Part shown: piece by piece, positions 6,102 to 62,597 of the stretch
Numbering within the stretch: position 1 is the stretch's first letter
How the letters are laid out: each line of letters starts with the position of its first letter
Origin: an uncultured Kiloniellaceae bacterium
Lineage (GTDB): Bacteria > Pseudomonadota > Alphaproteobacteria > Kiloniellales > Kiloniellaceae
Assembly: GCA_947493695.1 (NCBI GenBank)
Contig: CANLSF010000005.1
Coordinates: forward strand, 186,001 to 250,000
Direction of reading: 5' to 3'
DNA: 64,000 bases
The notes under the pieces: generated by a model
Databases searched by the model: none
What the model saw: only the letters and a program-made list of their open reading frames with translations
Told to the model about the DNA's origin: nothing
Position numbers and translations under genes: made by a program

Positions 6102-6247
6102 CTTATATCGCGTTTAATTGTATTCTCCGGTCCATCCGTTCGCCCTGCAATCTGCATACGCGGCCTCGGATGGGCCCTCGAATACAATGTTCGATGAAAT
6201 GCGGCCCCCACTGAAAATAAGTCATCTATACAAATGGCTTACCAAAA

Positions 6248-6293
6248 GATGGCCTGAACGGAGGTGTCCCCTTTGTTCGGGCCATCGCTTTTT
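6248..6293 (+). terminator. Rho-independent terminator after flgE
   Basis: Arms GATGGCCTGAAC (6248-6259) and GTTCGGGCCATC (6275-6286) form a 12-bp stem with one G-U pair. It is followed by GCTTTTTC. This ends the fliS-flgE transcript. Confidence 0.75.
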
Positions 6294-9867: not shown

Positions 9868-10851
9868 ATGTCAGCAGAGCAAAAATTTCTTTTCAACGAT
9901 GCCTTCGAAGCCCCCCTTTCATCGGGCAGCAAACCGGAGGCCCCGCCTCCGCCGCCGGAGCCGGAGGTGGTTGAACCTGAGATTTCCGAGGCGGACCTGG
10001 AGCAGGCCCGCGCCGAGGGACGTCAGGAGGGTATCAATCAGGGAAGAGAAGAAGGCCGCGCCGAGGCTTTTTCCGGTATCGAGCAGACCACCCAGACTCT
10101 CTTGCTGAACCTGACCGGACGCTTCGGGGAGCTTCTGTCCGAGCAGCCCAGGATGCAGGTGAAAGTCGCGGAGGATGCCCTGTTGGCCGCGTCGACAATC
10201 CTGCGCAAAATCGTACCTTCGCTTGAGAAATCCGCCGCGATAAAAGAAATCGAAGCCGTGGTTGCCGAGTGCCTGGAACGAGCGCAGGACGAACCGCGCC
10301 TGGTGGTGCGCGTATCCGAGCAAATGCTCGAGCCCGTGAAAACCCGCATTGACGCCCTGGTTAACGCCGAAGGCTTTGAAGGGAAGATCGTCTTCCTTGC
10401 CACTGACGAACTCAATGACAGCGATGTTCGGGTCGAGTGGGCAGACGGCGGAGCCGAGCGGCGGACCGATGAAATCTGGCACGATATCGATCAGATTCTT
10501 GCACGTTTTCTCAAGGTTCCGGCAGAGAGCCTCTCCCGGCAAAGCAGTGCAGCCACGGCCCCTATTCAGGTCGCGCCTCCCGCACCCGAGGCGGCCTCTC
10601 CTGCCACGGCCGCTGCCGACGAAGAATCGCAACCGGAGACCGCTGCGCCACCGCCACTTGTTTCACCAATGGAACAGATGGGACTGGCTGCGTCCGAGGA
10701 AATCGACGGTACCGAGACTGTTACCGCTGCTGCAGTCGCGACCGATCCGGAACCAACAGCAGTGCCCCCGGATCACGCCGGCGAATTAACGCAGACCATA
10801 GAAAAACCGGCAGCAACAGCCGCCGCCCCTCAGGAGCCTAACAATGACTGA
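9868..10851 (+). CDS. fliH: Flagellar assembly protein FliH
   Basis: A protein of 327 residues. FliH regulates the FliI export ATPase and links it to the C-ring. Features are a Pro/Glu-rich start (PPPPEPEVVEPE) and an Ala/Glu/Gly helix with GxxxG-like spacing (EGRQEGINQGREEGRAEA, about 50-70). The FliH core spans about 90-215, including VAEDALLAASTILRKIVPSL and RLVVRVSEQMLEPV. A long Ala/Pro/Glu-rich C-terminal extension (about 225-327) is not part of the core. It overlaps fliN by eight bases, so translation is coupled. Confidence 0.85.
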   Translation: MSAEQKFLFNDAFEAPLSSGSKPEAPPPPPEPEVVEPEISEADLEQARAEGRQEGINQGREEGRAEAFSGIEQTTQTLLLNLTGRFGELLSEQPRMQVKVAEDALLAASTILRKIVPSLEKSAAIKEIEAVVAECLERAQDEPRLVVRVSEQMLEPVKTRIDALVNAEGFEGKIVFLATDELNDSDVRVEWADGGAERRTDEIWHDIDQILARFLKVPAESLSRQSSAATAPIQVAPPAPEAASPATAAADEESQPETAAPPPLVSPMEQMGLAASEEIDGTETVTAAAVATDPEPTAVPPDHAGELTQTIEKPAATAAAPQEPNND

Positions 10852-41224: not shown

Positions 41225-42130
41225 GTGAATATCAGGCAACTTCAATTTCTCGTCGCCCTCTCCCAGGAGAAGCATTTCGCGCGCGCTGCAGCGGTCTGCA
41301 ACATCTCGCAGCCAACGCTCTCGTCACGCATCCGCCAGCTCGAAGAGGAACTTGGCGTTCCGATCGTCGAACGCGACAAGCGCTATATCGGTCTGACTGT
41401 TGAAGGCACGAGGGTTCTGGAGTGGGCCAAACGCATCCTTGCCGATTGCGAATTCCTGGAACAGGAGCTGAGCGAGCTCAAAGGCGGCCTGTCGGGCCGC
41501 CTGACCATGGGCGTCATACCCTCGGCCCTGCCTGTCGTTTCGCTGCTCACCTCGCCTTTTTGCGAAACGCATCCCGGCGTAAAGATCACAGTGCTCTCAC
41601 GTACGTCGGTACAGATCGAGCGTCAGCTCCATAACTTCGAAATCGAAATCGGCGTGACCTATGTCGACAATGAGCCACTCAAGCACGTCAAAACTCTGCC
41701 GCTTTATCAGGAGAACTACGTCCTGGTCACCTCGACGCAGGGACCATTGGCCGGCCGCGAAACGGTCAGCTGGGAAGAGGTGTCACGCATCCCCCTTTGT
41801 CTGCTGACATCGGATATGCAGAACCGGCGCATCGTCGACGATGCTTTCCGGCAGGTTAACTGCGAGGTTGCTCCTCAGGTCGAGGCAAACTCGATTACCG
41901 GTCTGTACTCCCATGTCCGTTTCGGGCACTGGTCCAGTGTCCTGCCGCAAACCTACGGCACCATGGTAGGACTTGGTGACAACCTCGAAGCAATCCCCAT
42001 TACCGCACCGCTCATGTCCCATTCAGTCGGACTGATCGCATCAGACCGCGATCCGCCCTCTCCGCTTGCCAGCGCAATGATGGCGGCAACCGCGAAACTT
42101 GATCTGACCGACCTGCTGAGCAGCCTATAA
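41225..42130 (+). CDS. LysR-family transcriptional regulator
   Basis: A protein of 301 residues. The N-terminal winged HTH reads NIRQLQFLVALSQEKHFARA and NISQPTLSSRIRQLEEELGV. The effector-binding part has SALPVVSLLTSPFCETHPGV and PLCLLTSDMQNRRIVDDAF. A GTG start at 41225 with GGAG upstream fits the usual N-terminus. From memory, regulators with this close sequence often adjoin NAD-linked formate dehydrogenase genes in other bacteria, but the fdh genes here are 18 kb away, so that link is only a hypothesis. It lacks the OxyR-type redox Cys arrangement. A CACTGGT...ACCAGTG dyad lies upstream at 41044-41073. Confidence 0.8.
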   Translation: MNIRQLQFLVALSQEKHFARAAAVCNISQPTLSSRIRQLEEELGVPIVERDKRYIGLTVEGTRVLEWAKRILADCEFLEQELSELKGGLSGRLTMGVIPSALPVVSLLTSPFCETHPGVKITVLSRTSVQIERQLHNFEIEIGVTYVDNEPLKHVKTLPLYQENYVLVTSTQGPLAGRETVSWEEVSRIPLCLLTSDMQNRRIVDDAFRQVNCEVAPQVEANSITGLYSHVRFGHWSSVLPQTYGTMVGLGDNLEAIPITAPLMSHSVGLIASDRDPPSPLASAMMAATAKLDLTDLLSSL

Positions 42131-59169: not shown

Positions 59170-59222
59170 TGACTGTGCTCTGCGGGGGCCGGTGTATCTT
59201 TACGGTCGCTAATCAGCATCCC

Positions 59223-59277
59223 CTATCACCTCATTCGAAATAGCGATTTGCTAATTTTTCCGGCTTCTCGGCAATAT
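59223..59277 (+). promoter_or_regulatory. Shared operator upstream of formate dehydrogenase beta
   Basis: CTATCACCTCATTCG (59223-59237), the dyad TAGC-GATTT-GCTA (59241-59253) and GCAATAT (59271-59277). The same three elements with the same spacing lie upstream of the alpha subunit (62543-62597). The dyad suits a LysR-type site. It lies 119 bases before the beta start, measured from the dyad. Confidence 0.8.
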
Positions 59278-59359
59278 TGCTTGAGTTTTAGCATGCCCGG
59301 CAGTGCAGGCGTGCTCTGAGATACGCTGCGGCAGAGCGGCAGACAGAGGTGGGAGTGAT

Positions 59360-61072
59360 ATGGCGCAAGGCGTAACAAGCGGAGCAACCGGGGCAAGCGG
59401 TAAGATCCATCCCGGTTCCGGGCGACGGAAAGCACCGGCCTTTAACAAGGGGCGGCAGCTCGACCCGGGAGATCTCGATGAGATCACGGAACTGCTGGAC
59501 GACCGCTCGACCCAACGGGATCTGCTGATCGAGCACCTGCATCTGATCCAGGACAGGTTCGGCAGCCTGAAGGCTGGGCATCTGCATGCTCTGGCCGACA
59601 TCATGCAGATTCCCATGTCCGAAGTTTATGAAGTTGCGTCCTTCTACGCCCATTTCGATATCGTCCAGGACGGCGAAAAGGTCGATCACGAGATCACCGT
59701 GCGTGTCTGCGACAGTCTGACCTGCGAGCTGAAAGGCGCGCCGGCGCTGCTCGAAGGCCTCAAGGCCAACAGCGGCGCATCGGTTCGTGTGGTGCGCGCC
59801 CCTTGCATGGGCCGCTGCGACACCGCACCGGTCGCCGAGGTCGGGCACTATCACGTCGATAACGCCAGTGTTGAAAACATCACCAGCGCGGTCGAAAGCA
59901 AACATGTCCATCCGGAGATCCCGGCTTACAAGGATTTCGAAGCCTATCAGAAAGACGGCGGTTACAGCCTGCTGCGCGACTGTCTTGCCGGACAGAAGAC
60001 CCCGGACGAGCTGATCAAGGTGATGGAAGATTCCGGCCTGCGCGGTCTGGGCGGTGCGGGTTTCCCCTCCGGCCTGAAATGGAAGATCGTCCGTCAGCAA
60101 CCTAAACCCCGTCTCTTCGCCATCAACGGCGACGAAGGCGAGCCGGGCACCTTTAAGGACCGCTATTATCTGGAGACCGACCCGCACCGCTTCCTGGAAG
60201 GCATGCTGGTCGCCGCCTGGGTGACCGAGGTCGAGACCGTCTATGTCTATATCCGCGACGAATATCCCGCCGCCATCGAGATCCTGCGACGTGAAATCGC
60301 CAAGCTGGAGACCGCGGGCCTTACGGGCGGGCGCCGGATCGAAGTTCGCCGCGGTGCGGGCGCCTACATCTGCGGCGAAGAATCGGCGATGATTGAATCG
60401 ATCGAAGGCAAGCGCGGCCTGCCGCGTCACAAACCGCCCTTCCCTTCGGAAAAAGGCCTCTTCGGACTGCCGACCCTGACCCACAACGTCGAGACAGTCT
60501 TCTGGGTCCGTGATCTGGTCGAGCGTGGCCCTGAATGGTTCTCCTCCGAGGGACGCAATGGCCGCAAGGGTCTACGTTCCTTTTCGGTCTCCGGCCGGGT
60601 GAAGTCTCCCGGGGTCAAGCTGGCCCCTGCAGGCATCACGGTGCGCGAGCTGATCGAGGAGTACTGCGGCGGGATGGCGGATGGCCATTCCTTCAAGGGC
60701 TACCTGCCCGGTGGCGCGTCGGGTGGTGTGCTCCCCGCCTCCATGGGCGATATCCCTCTCGATTTCGGCACCCTGGAGGAATACGGCAGCTTCATCGGTT
60801 CCGCCGCCGTGGTCATCCTGTCGGATCAGGACAACATGAAGGACGTGGCGCTGAACCTCATGCGCTTCTTCGAAGACGAGAGCTGCGGCCAGTGTACGCC
60901 CTGCCGCAACGGCACGGAAAAAGCCGTCAAACTGATGTCAGAAACCAAGTGGGATCAGGACCTGCTGAACGATCTCTCTGTCGTGATGCGGGACGCGTCG
61001 ATCTGCGGCCTCGGTCAAGCGGCACCGAACCCGTTGCTCACCGTAATGAAATACTTCCCGGAGGACCTCTAA
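59360..61072 (+). CDS. NAD-dependent formate dehydrogenase beta subunit (NuoE-NuoF fusion)
   Basis: A protein of 570 residues. It takes electrons from the alpha subunit and reduces NAD+. The NuoE-like part (about 25-180) has 2Fe-2S Cys in CDSLTCELKGA and CMGRCDTAP. The NuoF-like part (about 200-570) has FMN/NAD-binding GLGGAGFPSGLKWK, NGDEGEPGTFKDRYYL, GAGAYICGEESAMIES, and the 4Fe-4S ligands ESCGQCTPCRNG with a later CGLG. Length and fusion match the beta subunit of the tungsten FDH1 of Methylorubrum extorquens. GGGAG precedes the ATG at 59360. It is followed by a long palindrome and then a membrane gene, not directly by the alpha subunit. Confidence 0.93.
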   Translation: MAQGVTSGATGASGKIHPGSGRRKAPAFNKGRQLDPGDLDEITELLDDRSTQRDLLIEHLHLIQDRFGSLKAGHLHALADIMQIPMSEVYEVASFYAHFDIVQDGEKVDHEITVRVCDSLTCELKGAPALLEGLKANSGASVRVVRAPCMGRCDTAPVAEVGHYHVDNASVENITSAVESKHVHPEIPAYKDFEAYQKDGGYSLLRDCLAGQKTPDELIKVMEDSGLRGLGGAGFPSGLKWKIVRQQPKPRLFAINGDEGEPGTFKDRYYLETDPHRFLEGMLVAAWVTEVETVYVYIRDEYPAAIEILRREIAKLETAGLTGGRRIEVRRGAGAYICGEESAMIESIEGKRGLPRHKPPFPSEKGLFGLPTLTHNVETVFWVRDLVERGPEWFSSEGRNGRKGLRSFSVSGRVKSPGVKLAPAGITVRELIEEYCGGMADGHSFKGYLPGGASGGVLPASMGDIPLDFGTLEEYGSFIGSAAVVILSDQDNMKDVALNLMRFFEDESCGQCTPCRNGTEKAVKLMSETKWDQDLLNDLSVVMRDASICGLGQAAPNPLLTVMKYFPEDL

Positions 61073-61086
61073 AGCGGCGACCTTTA

Positions 61087-61146
61087 TGACCGTGTCCCGC
61101 ATCGATAAATTTGAGTAAAATCAAATATATCGATGCGGAACGGTCA
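61087..61146. repeat. Long imperfect inverted repeat after the beta subunit
   Basis: Nested arms TGACCG/CGGTCA, CCGCATCGATA/TATCGATGCGG and TTTGA/TCAAA surround the loop GTAAAA, about 60 bases in all. There is no T-run. It could be a repeat-family element (MITE or REP-like) or an mRNA stability hairpin between subunit genes. Confidence 0.8.
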
Positions 61147-61225
61147 CGCTCTCCGACATTTACCTTTCCTTATTTCTTAAGAATTAGCGTTGTCTGCGAT
61201 TTTCCCGATAATCGGAGACGACGCA

Positions 61226-62380
61226 GTGAGCGTAACGGCAGACAATTCCTTGGCAGGAGCGCCAGCGGCATCGGACCACCGCGCTTACTTCGTCAGCCCG
61301 CTTGTGGATTTTCTCTGCCTTGGCGGCGCTTCCCTGATCGTCCTTCCAATCATGGCGTTGGTTATCCCAGCTGAGCCGTTCCAGCCAACGGTCACACTCG
61401 TCATGCTCGCGCTCACCAACATTATCAACCACCCGCACTTCGCGCATTCCTATCAGATTTTTTACCGGGATTTCACGCGCAAAGCCTTTGGCCAGGAAAC
61501 GACAGCTGTACTTCGGGCCCGCTATATTTTCGCGGGCATCATCGTACCGGTTCTGCTTTTTGCATTTTTTGCCGTGAGCATCGGCCTGGGTGATGCGCGC
61601 ATGCTCGGACTTGGAATGAACCTAGTGCTATTTCTGGTTGGCTGGCACTACGTCAAGCAAGGATACGGGATGGCGATCGTAGATTCCGTCTTCAAGAGGC
61701 TTTTCTTCTCTAACCAGACAAAGAAGCTCATGTTGCTCAACGGCTATGCCTGCTGGGCACTTGGCTGGATCATTGTGAACCGGGAAGCTGCCCAAAACGA
61801 CTTCTGGGGTGTCGCCTATTTCATGTTCGAGATCCCGGACATCCTCTTTACTTCTGCCATAGCCTGTGCGGCTGTAACCAGCGTTCTAACCTTGATCGCA
61901 CTCTTCAAGGAGTGGCGGAAAAACGAGGGAAGAATTCCAGTCAACGGCGTACTCGCCTATCTTACAACCTTGTACCTCTGGATCATCTTCGTTCATGTGA
62001 ACCCGCTTTTCATCCTGGTCGTTCCAGCCTTTCATTCTCTGCAATATCTATTGGTTGTCTGGCGCTTTCAGCTCAATGCAGAACACGGCCAATCCGACGC
62101 TCGGGATTATCCGAACAGCAAATGGCTCGGGCAATTGACTCCCAACAAAGCGACTATGCGTTTCACCCTGTTCCTCGCCATGGGTATCGTGCTCGGCTTT
62201 ATGGCGTTTTGGGCCATTCCTTTCCTTGCTTCGGCACTGACCTCTTTCGACCCGCTTGTATTCGGCGTAACACCCTTCTTTTTCATCTGTTGGATCTTCG
62301 TCAACGTCCATCACTATTGCCTGGATAACGTGATGTGGCGTCGCGAGAACCCGGACACAAAAAAATACCTCTTTTCGTAA
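61226..62380 (+). CDS. Uncharacterised His-rich polytopic membrane protein
   Basis: A protein of 384 residues with about eight to nine membrane helices. The family is not recognised. Histidines stand in conserved-looking motifs at helix ends: NHPHFAHSY (His69, 71, 74), WHYVKQGYG (141), a VPAFHSLQY-type segment (270) and NVHHYCLDNVMWRREN (362, 363, Asp367). This pattern is reminiscent of membrane-bound metal-dependent oxygenases or of quinone- or heme-binding proteins, but I claim none. The GTG at 61226 has GGAG nine bases upstream; a TTG at 61190 is the alternative. It lies between the two formate dehydrogenase subunits on the same strand. Confidence 0.75.
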   Translation: MSVTADNSLAGAPAASDHRAYFVSPLVDFLCLGGASLIVLPIMALVIPAEPFQPTVTLVMLALTNIINHPHFAHSYQIFYRDFTRKAFGQETTAVLRARYIFAGIIVPVLLFAFFAVSIGLGDARMLGLGMNLVLFLVGWHYVKQGYGMAIVDSVFKRLFFSNQTKKLMLLNGYACWALGWIIVNREAAQNDFWGVAYFMFEIPDILFTSAIACAAVTSVLTLIALFKEWRKNEGRIPVNGVLAYLTTLYLWIIFVHVNPLFILVVPAFHSLQYLLVVWRFQLNAEHGQSDARDYPNSKWLGQLTPNKATMRFTLFLAMGIVLGFMAFWAIPFLASALTSFDPLVFGVTPFFFICWIFVNVHHYCLDNVMWRRENPDTKKYLFS

Positions 62381-62388
62381 AGCCTTGA

Positions 62389-62435
62389 CGCCCTTCAGCG
62401 CGCACATAGCCTCAAGCGCGAAAAACTGAAGGGCG
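62389..62435 (+). terminator. Hairpin after the membrane protein gene
   Basis: CGCCCTTCAG (62389-62398) and CTGAAGGGCG (62426-62435) form a perfect 10-bp stem, with a second CGCG pairing inside the loop. No T-run follows, so its termination strength is uncertain. Confidence 0.55.
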
Positions 62436-62542
62436 GTCCCTTACAGATCGCGCTTAAGAGAGGTTAACGAGACTCCGTAATATATTGATTTAAAATAACT
62501 TATTTCGCTTAACACAACAGCTTTTCGACTGATCAGACTTGC

Positions 62543-62597
62543 CTATCACCTCATTCGGAAAAGCGATTTGCTTATTTTCCGCTGAAACCCGCAATAT
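62543..62597 (+). promoter_or_regulatory. Shared operator upstream of formate dehydrogenase alpha
   Basis: CTATCACCTCATTCG (62543-62557), dyad AAGC-GATTT-GCTT (62561-62573) and GCAATAT (62591-62597). Compared with the copy upstream of beta, both outer dyad bases changed together (TAGC...GCTA to AAGC...GCTT), preserving symmetry. It lies 74 bases before the alpha ATG. Confidence 0.8.

Follow-up and report, generated by a model that had tools for sequence, protein, structure and literature searches.

In a 64,000-nucleotide stretch of the genome of an uncultured Kiloniellaceae bacterium (contig CANLSF010000005.1, positions 186,001 to 250,000; hereafter, the window), the genes of an NAD-dependent formate dehydrogenase, fdsGB and fdsA, lie apart from each other, and each is preceded by a similar block of DNA. 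On the strength of sequence comparison, we consider it probable that each block is a promoter under a LysR-type activator of the FdsR kind, the second being a diverged copy that keeps the split-off fdsA under the same regulator. The control system itself looks ordinary, and its arrangement looks unusual.

An earlier sequence-only reading of this DNA had described two 55-base blocks sharing three elements at the same spacing, and we reproduced both the positions and the spacing: CTATCACCTCATTCG starts at 59223 in block 1 and 62543 in block 2, GCGATTTGCT at 59243 and 62563, and GCAATAT at 59271 and 62591, with an offset of 48 between the first and the last element in either block. A repeat search of the window returned a 50-nt repeat (59209-59258 and 62529-62578, 84% identity), so the similarity starts 14 bases upstream of the blocks as first drawn. 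The 15-mer CTATCACCTCATTCG occurs exactly only twice in the 6.46-Mb genome, once per block, and the blocks are therefore not a product of chance; the single site with one mismatch (C9) is embedded in a 659-codon open stretch that runs on the opposite strand from the motif, and the remainder of the block is missing there. When up to three mismatches were allowed, the pattern TATCACCTCATTCG-N4-AGCGATTTGCT was found in 4 of 98 genomes, twice here and once in each of three congeners (G001, G002 and G003). A profile (R1) that was partly built from these same blocks, and is thus informative only for the absence of further copies, likewise gave two copies here and one per congener in the four genus genomes, where the next matches had expectation values (E) of at least 0.2. 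The genome-wide search for more copies proposed by the sequence-only reading hence returned no credible third copy in the window genome (next E 0.25 versus 2e-8). Its denial of a recent duplication also stands, as block 2 matches block 1 at 51 of 72 positions and the congener blocks at 51-53, whereas block 1 matches its congener orthologs at 64-65.

Both blocks can be read as promoters of the same build (Table 1). A T-N11-A interrupted palindrome is present upstream of the putative -35 element at 59210 and at 62530, and in block 1 it lines up with the ATAG-N7-CTAT of promoters that adjoin LysR genes. The palindrome centre would fall at about -65/-66 from the transcription start of both promoters, with the start set by the predicted -10. 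Eleven in-register promoters align without internal gaps in the core; in this alignment, the AT (59233-59234) and the A (59242) of the conserved segment of block 1 are invariant. Four rhizobial plasmid sites have AC where the alignment has AT, and TTGACC or TTGATC lies one base earlier in loci L203, L206, L209 and L212. The predicted -10, CAATAT, is a weak match to TATAAT (only 3 of 6 positions), and a consensus promoter scan listed neither the fdsGB nor the fdsA promoter.

The LysR gene of the window, proposed earlier as the regulator, appears to be a good candidate, since its protein belongs to an fds-linked clade and promoters beside homologous genes are in the register of the blocks. Its best NCBIfam match is CynR, below the cutoff (159 versus 277 bits), so the name FdsR rests on gene neighbourhood. 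A LysR protein of this clade is encoded in all four genus genomes, and in the tree the genus proteins group within a 40-row clade with many fds-linked members, which is separated (99/98) from three other LysR proteins. Long outgroup branches leave the root unsure, and the clustering of the fds label among near LysR relatives is a weak test. In at least 11 of 80 named loci, a lower bound because many contigs are short, the gene immediately upstream of fds is a homolog of this LysR, on either the same or the divergent strand; two further loci have weak homologs elsewhere. Of 12 plasmid regions taken from 49 records, nine carry an FdsB/NuoF-like gene immediately downstream of the LysR gene. In L204, an fdhF gene is located upstream of it instead, and L211 and L214 show neither gene.

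The same site in the same register is found beside homologous LysR genes in other organisms (L205, L207 and L210 are misses, and L017, L072, L074, L075 and L087 score low). We built a foreign matrix from six LysR-adjacent fds promoters of other organisms (L048, L063, L065, L067, L073 and L079), in all of which, as in the window, 28 bases separate CTAT from the end of TTG. Among 127,906 window positions, this matrix ranked block 2 first (18.3) and block 1 fourth (10.5), and in the congener loci it ranked the blocks first, first and second. In leave-one-out runs all six training loci came first, and L072, outside the matrix, came ninth. Across 84 fds upstream regions, the G001 block (17.6) led the 78 that had no part in the training. 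Conversely, a matrix of the four distinct blocks of this genus had its best position on the LysR-fds intergenic region of G046, from another family of the order (16.0 versus 10.3 for the best background position of the window), and on that of Azospirillum brasilense (14.7). Moreover, ATAG-N7-CTAT, fixed beforehand, is exact in six of the nine plasmid LysR-fds intergenic regions (L203, L206, L208, L209, L212 and L213). Elsewhere in the window, the second-ranking site for the foreign motif lies at 6225-6272, between an open reading frame (ORF) that reads as flagellar-hook-like and the next ORF, and is probably a chance match.

A number of observations weigh against the assignment to an FdsR-like regulator. 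The training sites were set in register by eye when the block had already been seen. Two unrelated window sites, at 15.0 and 11.4, beat block 1, as do three loci without an adjacent LysR gene (L068, L053 and L031, at 14.1, 12.6 and 10.7), while the LysR-adjacent L074, L075 and L017 reach only 9.7, 7.7 and 3.4 and the likewise LysR-adjacent L072 and L087 are outside the best 30 of 84. The best position of the genus matrix coincides with the palindrome in only two of the nine plasmid regions (L212 and L213), and L205, L207 and L210 lack an exact ATAG-N7-CTAT. Exact copies of that motif occur in 6 of the 11 fds upstream regions with an adjacent LysR gene versus 1 of 69 others, a contrast that is partly circular because the motif was derived from some of those loci. 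The left half in this genus is ATCA, giving 6 of the 8 positions, and 47 of 69 control loci reach at least 6; the 14-position palindrome alone is not above chance in G000-G003, so that the case within the genus rests on the full register. In a survey of the order (56 upstream regions of 61 genomes, with G022, G030, G044, G045 and G052 left out), 9 of the 18 genomes that have the LysR gene, and none of the 38 that lack it, carried a palindrome of at least 11/14, but eight of the nine positives belong to one genus, which reduces the co-occurrence to two lineages. Finally, the LysR gene lies 17 kb from fds here and 17-30 kb away across the four genus genomes, although an adjacent or divergent regulator is usual rather than required for such promoters, and no block-like site indicative of autoregulation precedes the LysR gene itself at the four genus loci.

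In line with some of these points, both blocks might be promoters under some other activator, or under none, their likeness reflecting only promoter and local signals. The identical -35/-10 spacing of the two blocks, the lack of adjacency between LysR and fds in this genus and the partial match to the foreign motif all fit this explanation; however, conservation spans the upstream palindrome and the CAT-CG segment as well, in the register seen in promoters next to LysR homologs, and we regard this alternative as rather improbable.

Systems described in the literature resemble the arrangement in part. In Cupriavidus necator, FdsR and its promoter are formate-inducible (4.5-fold in a table), and native regulators except BadR are classed as activators or dual-function in the excerpts of that paper (PMC7057948). 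That study selected divergent regulator-target pairs, whereas here the regulator is 17 kb off and there are two promoters; the family to which FdsR belongs is not given in the excerpts (PMC7057948). For Methylosinus trichosporium OB3b, a table lists a LysR-family gene named fdsR whose locus tag is followed without a break by those of fdsG, fdsB and fdsA; fdsG and fdsB are separate genes there and the regulator is adjacent, unlike the fused fdsGB and the distant LysR gene found here, and the table passage describes no site (PMC3615186). For OxyR, IlvY and CynR, an excerpted source gives a 15-bp inverted repeat centred at about -66, with further sites at about -44 and -35, the repeat being ATAG-N7-CTAT for OxyR and ATAA-N7-TTAT for CynR (PMC5002191). 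The position of this first site (IR1) is matched by the palindrome centre at -65/-66, counted from the predicted start, although the left half in this genus is ATCA (PMC5002191). Excerpted literature matches, as listed, contained no description of an FdsR binding site.

The duplicated block is accompanied by a split of the operon. In the three congeners, fdsGB and fdsA are adjacent (calculated gaps of 2, 5 and 5 bases in G001, G002 and G003) and a single block lies upstream of fdsGB, which encodes a protein of 93-96% identity; in the window genome, and only there, the calculated gap is 1565 bases and holds an insertion of about 1.55 kb plus the second block, its contents being a long hairpin, a 396-aa gene and block 2. 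The gene downstream of block 1 had been labelled beta, which is correct for that part and incomplete for the gene, a gamma-beta fusion. The ribosome-site-like CCGGAGGAAA precedes fdsA here and in G001 and G003 (CCGTAGGAAA in G002), so the insertion sits just before CCGGAGGAAA. The inserted gene has a G+C content of 52.2%, versus 61.5% for fdsGB and fdsA, is absent between these genes in all three congeners, and its protein matched no Pfam or NCBIfam family. Matches to it occur in 14 of 98 genomes. Besides this genome, nine others have matches of 46-54% identity, some of them partial; seven of these genomes belong to the order and two to other parts of the class. The remaining four matches are weak, at 23-27%. 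Block-like promoters were looked for at the 14 loci, and none was present nearby (best score 7.0). The protein, read from the sequence, has the histidine-containing motifs HPHFAHSY and HHYCLD. The hairpin had no match in the three congeners and found only itself across the four genus genomes. A joint import of block 2 and fdsA from a distant donor was considered and rejected, as the 5′ end of fdsA is not extra diverged (80-91% identity to the three congeners in 200-base bins).

The proposed sequence of events is as follows. Originally, one such promoter would have driven fdsGB-fdsA. The insertion, with its membrane-protein gene and strong hairpin, would then have parted fdsA from fdsGB in this species, and the diverged promoter copy just upstream of fdsA would keep it under the same regulator. 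One regulator dimer would occupy the T-N11-A palindrome, some 65 bp ahead of the start, another would extend to the conserved segment that adjoins the -35, and an inducer (formate, by analogy with C. necator FdsR) would lead to transcription starts at both promoters. Since the blocks resemble regulated promoters of both formate dehydrogenase parts, the two subunits are probably co-regulated, as the sequence-only reading had suggested. More tentatively, the operon may have been caught while splitting. A second operator-promoter, foreign to the resident one or of greater age, would then have arrived with the insertion or rescued it. A further scenario, which seems unlikely to us, is that block 2, as a relic in decay or a passenger that came with the insertion, does not drive fdsA, which would depend instead on read-through from block 1. 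Read-through is possible, given that the hairpin has no T-run after it and that a scan listed no terminator there, yet block 2 has kept its promoter elements and their spacing within flanks that do not evidently resemble the other blocks.

To look for second operators elsewhere, we scanned 15 fdsGB-fdsA gaps of other loci. Two reached 11/14, in L031 (shuffle fraction 0.02) and L073 (0 of 200 shuffles), which is not convincing after 15 tests. The partial LysR-type palindrome in the L073 gap (10159-10520) could be another second operator or chance.

The sequence-only reading had placed the operator in a central dyad, AGC-N5-GCT, and had taken its outer bases as paired compensatory changes. The two copies do differ at the outer bases of both arms (TAGC..GCTA at 59241-59253 in block 1, AAGC..GCTT at 62561-62573 in block 2), the dyad is symmetric in both, and its inner three pairs are identical in all three congeners; without variation in the genus, these inner pairs are uninformative on compensation. 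The claim of compensation itself is not borne out. The congener dyad is TAGC-GATTT-GCTT in all three cases, with the outer pair T/T, so each window copy needs one change, on opposite arms, and a double change is unnecessary; the T/T dyad, on which the congeners agree, is a candidate for the ancestral form rather than a proven one. Nor is pairing kept outside the genus while both arms change: from the outer to the inner pair, complementarity is seen in 7, 6, 6 and 9 of 18 aligned promoters and in 5, 2, 2 and 5 of the 14 outside the genus, which is about chance, five of these 14 having TTG one base earlier and hence a dyad register off by one. For the upstream palindrome, by comparison, complementarity at its seven pairs is seen in 9, 13, 14, 17, 18, 13 and 14 of the 18 promoters, figures that are partly selected because the outside promoters were chosen for carrying it. 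The distance from the palindrome centre at 59219 downstream to the dyad centre at 59247 is 28 bp, versus 22 or 31-32 bp between the OxyR, IlvY and CynR sites in the excerpted source (PMC5002191). With an overlap of the putative -35 and 336 dyads of the 4-N5-4 form in the window, where such dyads are thus common, it is very unlikely that this dyad is the operator and that its arms changed jointly to keep symmetry. The palindrome kept across species is, as judged from the aligned promoters, the one farther upstream, which the 55-base block had cut in half.

Table 1. Features of the fds region and its candidate regulator (window coordinates unless a locus is named)
Feature	Position	Strand	Remarks
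Block 1	59223-59277		upstream of fdsGB
Block 2	62543-62597		upstream of fdsA
Candidate LysR recognition palindrome, block 1	59210..59228	+	TAAT-N11-ATCA (core ATCA-N7-CTAT, T-N11-A); centre 59219
Candidate LysR recognition palindrome, block 2	62530..62548	+	TGAT-N11-ATCA; centre 62539; top window position for the foreign motif
Activation-site-like conserved segment, block 1	59231..59247	+	TCATTCGAAATAGCGAT
Activation-site-like conserved segment, block 2	62551..62567	+	TCATTCGGAAAAGCGAT; from alignment
Predicted -35, fdsGB promoter	59248..59253	+	TTGCTA; TTG invariant in 11-sequence alignment
Predicted -10, fdsGB promoter	59272..59277	+	CAATAT; spacer 18; identical in G001-G003 and both blocks
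Predicted -35, fdsA promoter	62568..62573	+	TTGCTT; register as block 1
Predicted -10, fdsA promoter	62592..62597	+	CAATAT; spacer 18; register as block 1
Dyad of the sequence-only reading	59241..59253	+	TAGCGATTTGCTA; overlaps predicted -35; not kept outside genus
LysR-type regulator, candidate FdsR	41225..42130	+	LysR Pfam domains; homologs next to fds genes
fdsGB, fused gamma-beta subunit, NAD-dependent formate dehydrogenase, 570 aa	59360..61072	+	Pfam 2Fe-2S_thioredx, Complex1_51K, SLBB, NADH_4Fe-4S
Long hairpin downstream of fdsGB, within insertion	61087..61146	+	RNA fold -34.9 kcal/mol, z -7.8
Inserted gene, 396-aa membrane protein (read from sequence)	61190..62380	+	TTG start as listed, true start uncertain
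fdsA, formate dehydrogenase alpha subunit, 927 aa	62635..64000, extends beyond window end	+	TIGR01591 above cutoff; full ORF L010:3635-6418
FdhD gene	L010:13398-14378
MobA gene	L010:12728-13501
moaA-like ORF	L010:15818-16843

Downstream of fds lie genes that relate to the molybdenum cofactor, namely those for FdhD and MobA and, as read from the sequence, a moaA-like ORF.

The dyad offers a caution of wider use: where the form found in their relatives is asymmetric, two copies can give the appearance of compensatory change if they are set against nothing but each other. For the FdsR-like LysR group in Alphaproteobacteria, the blocks provide an operator that can be put to the test, and the locus as a whole would be a natural split operon whose separated gene carries the common control site in diverged form. 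If the split is indeed in progress, fdsA would have its own formate-responsive promoter, possibly of a different strength, and the stoichiometry of the subunits could shift.

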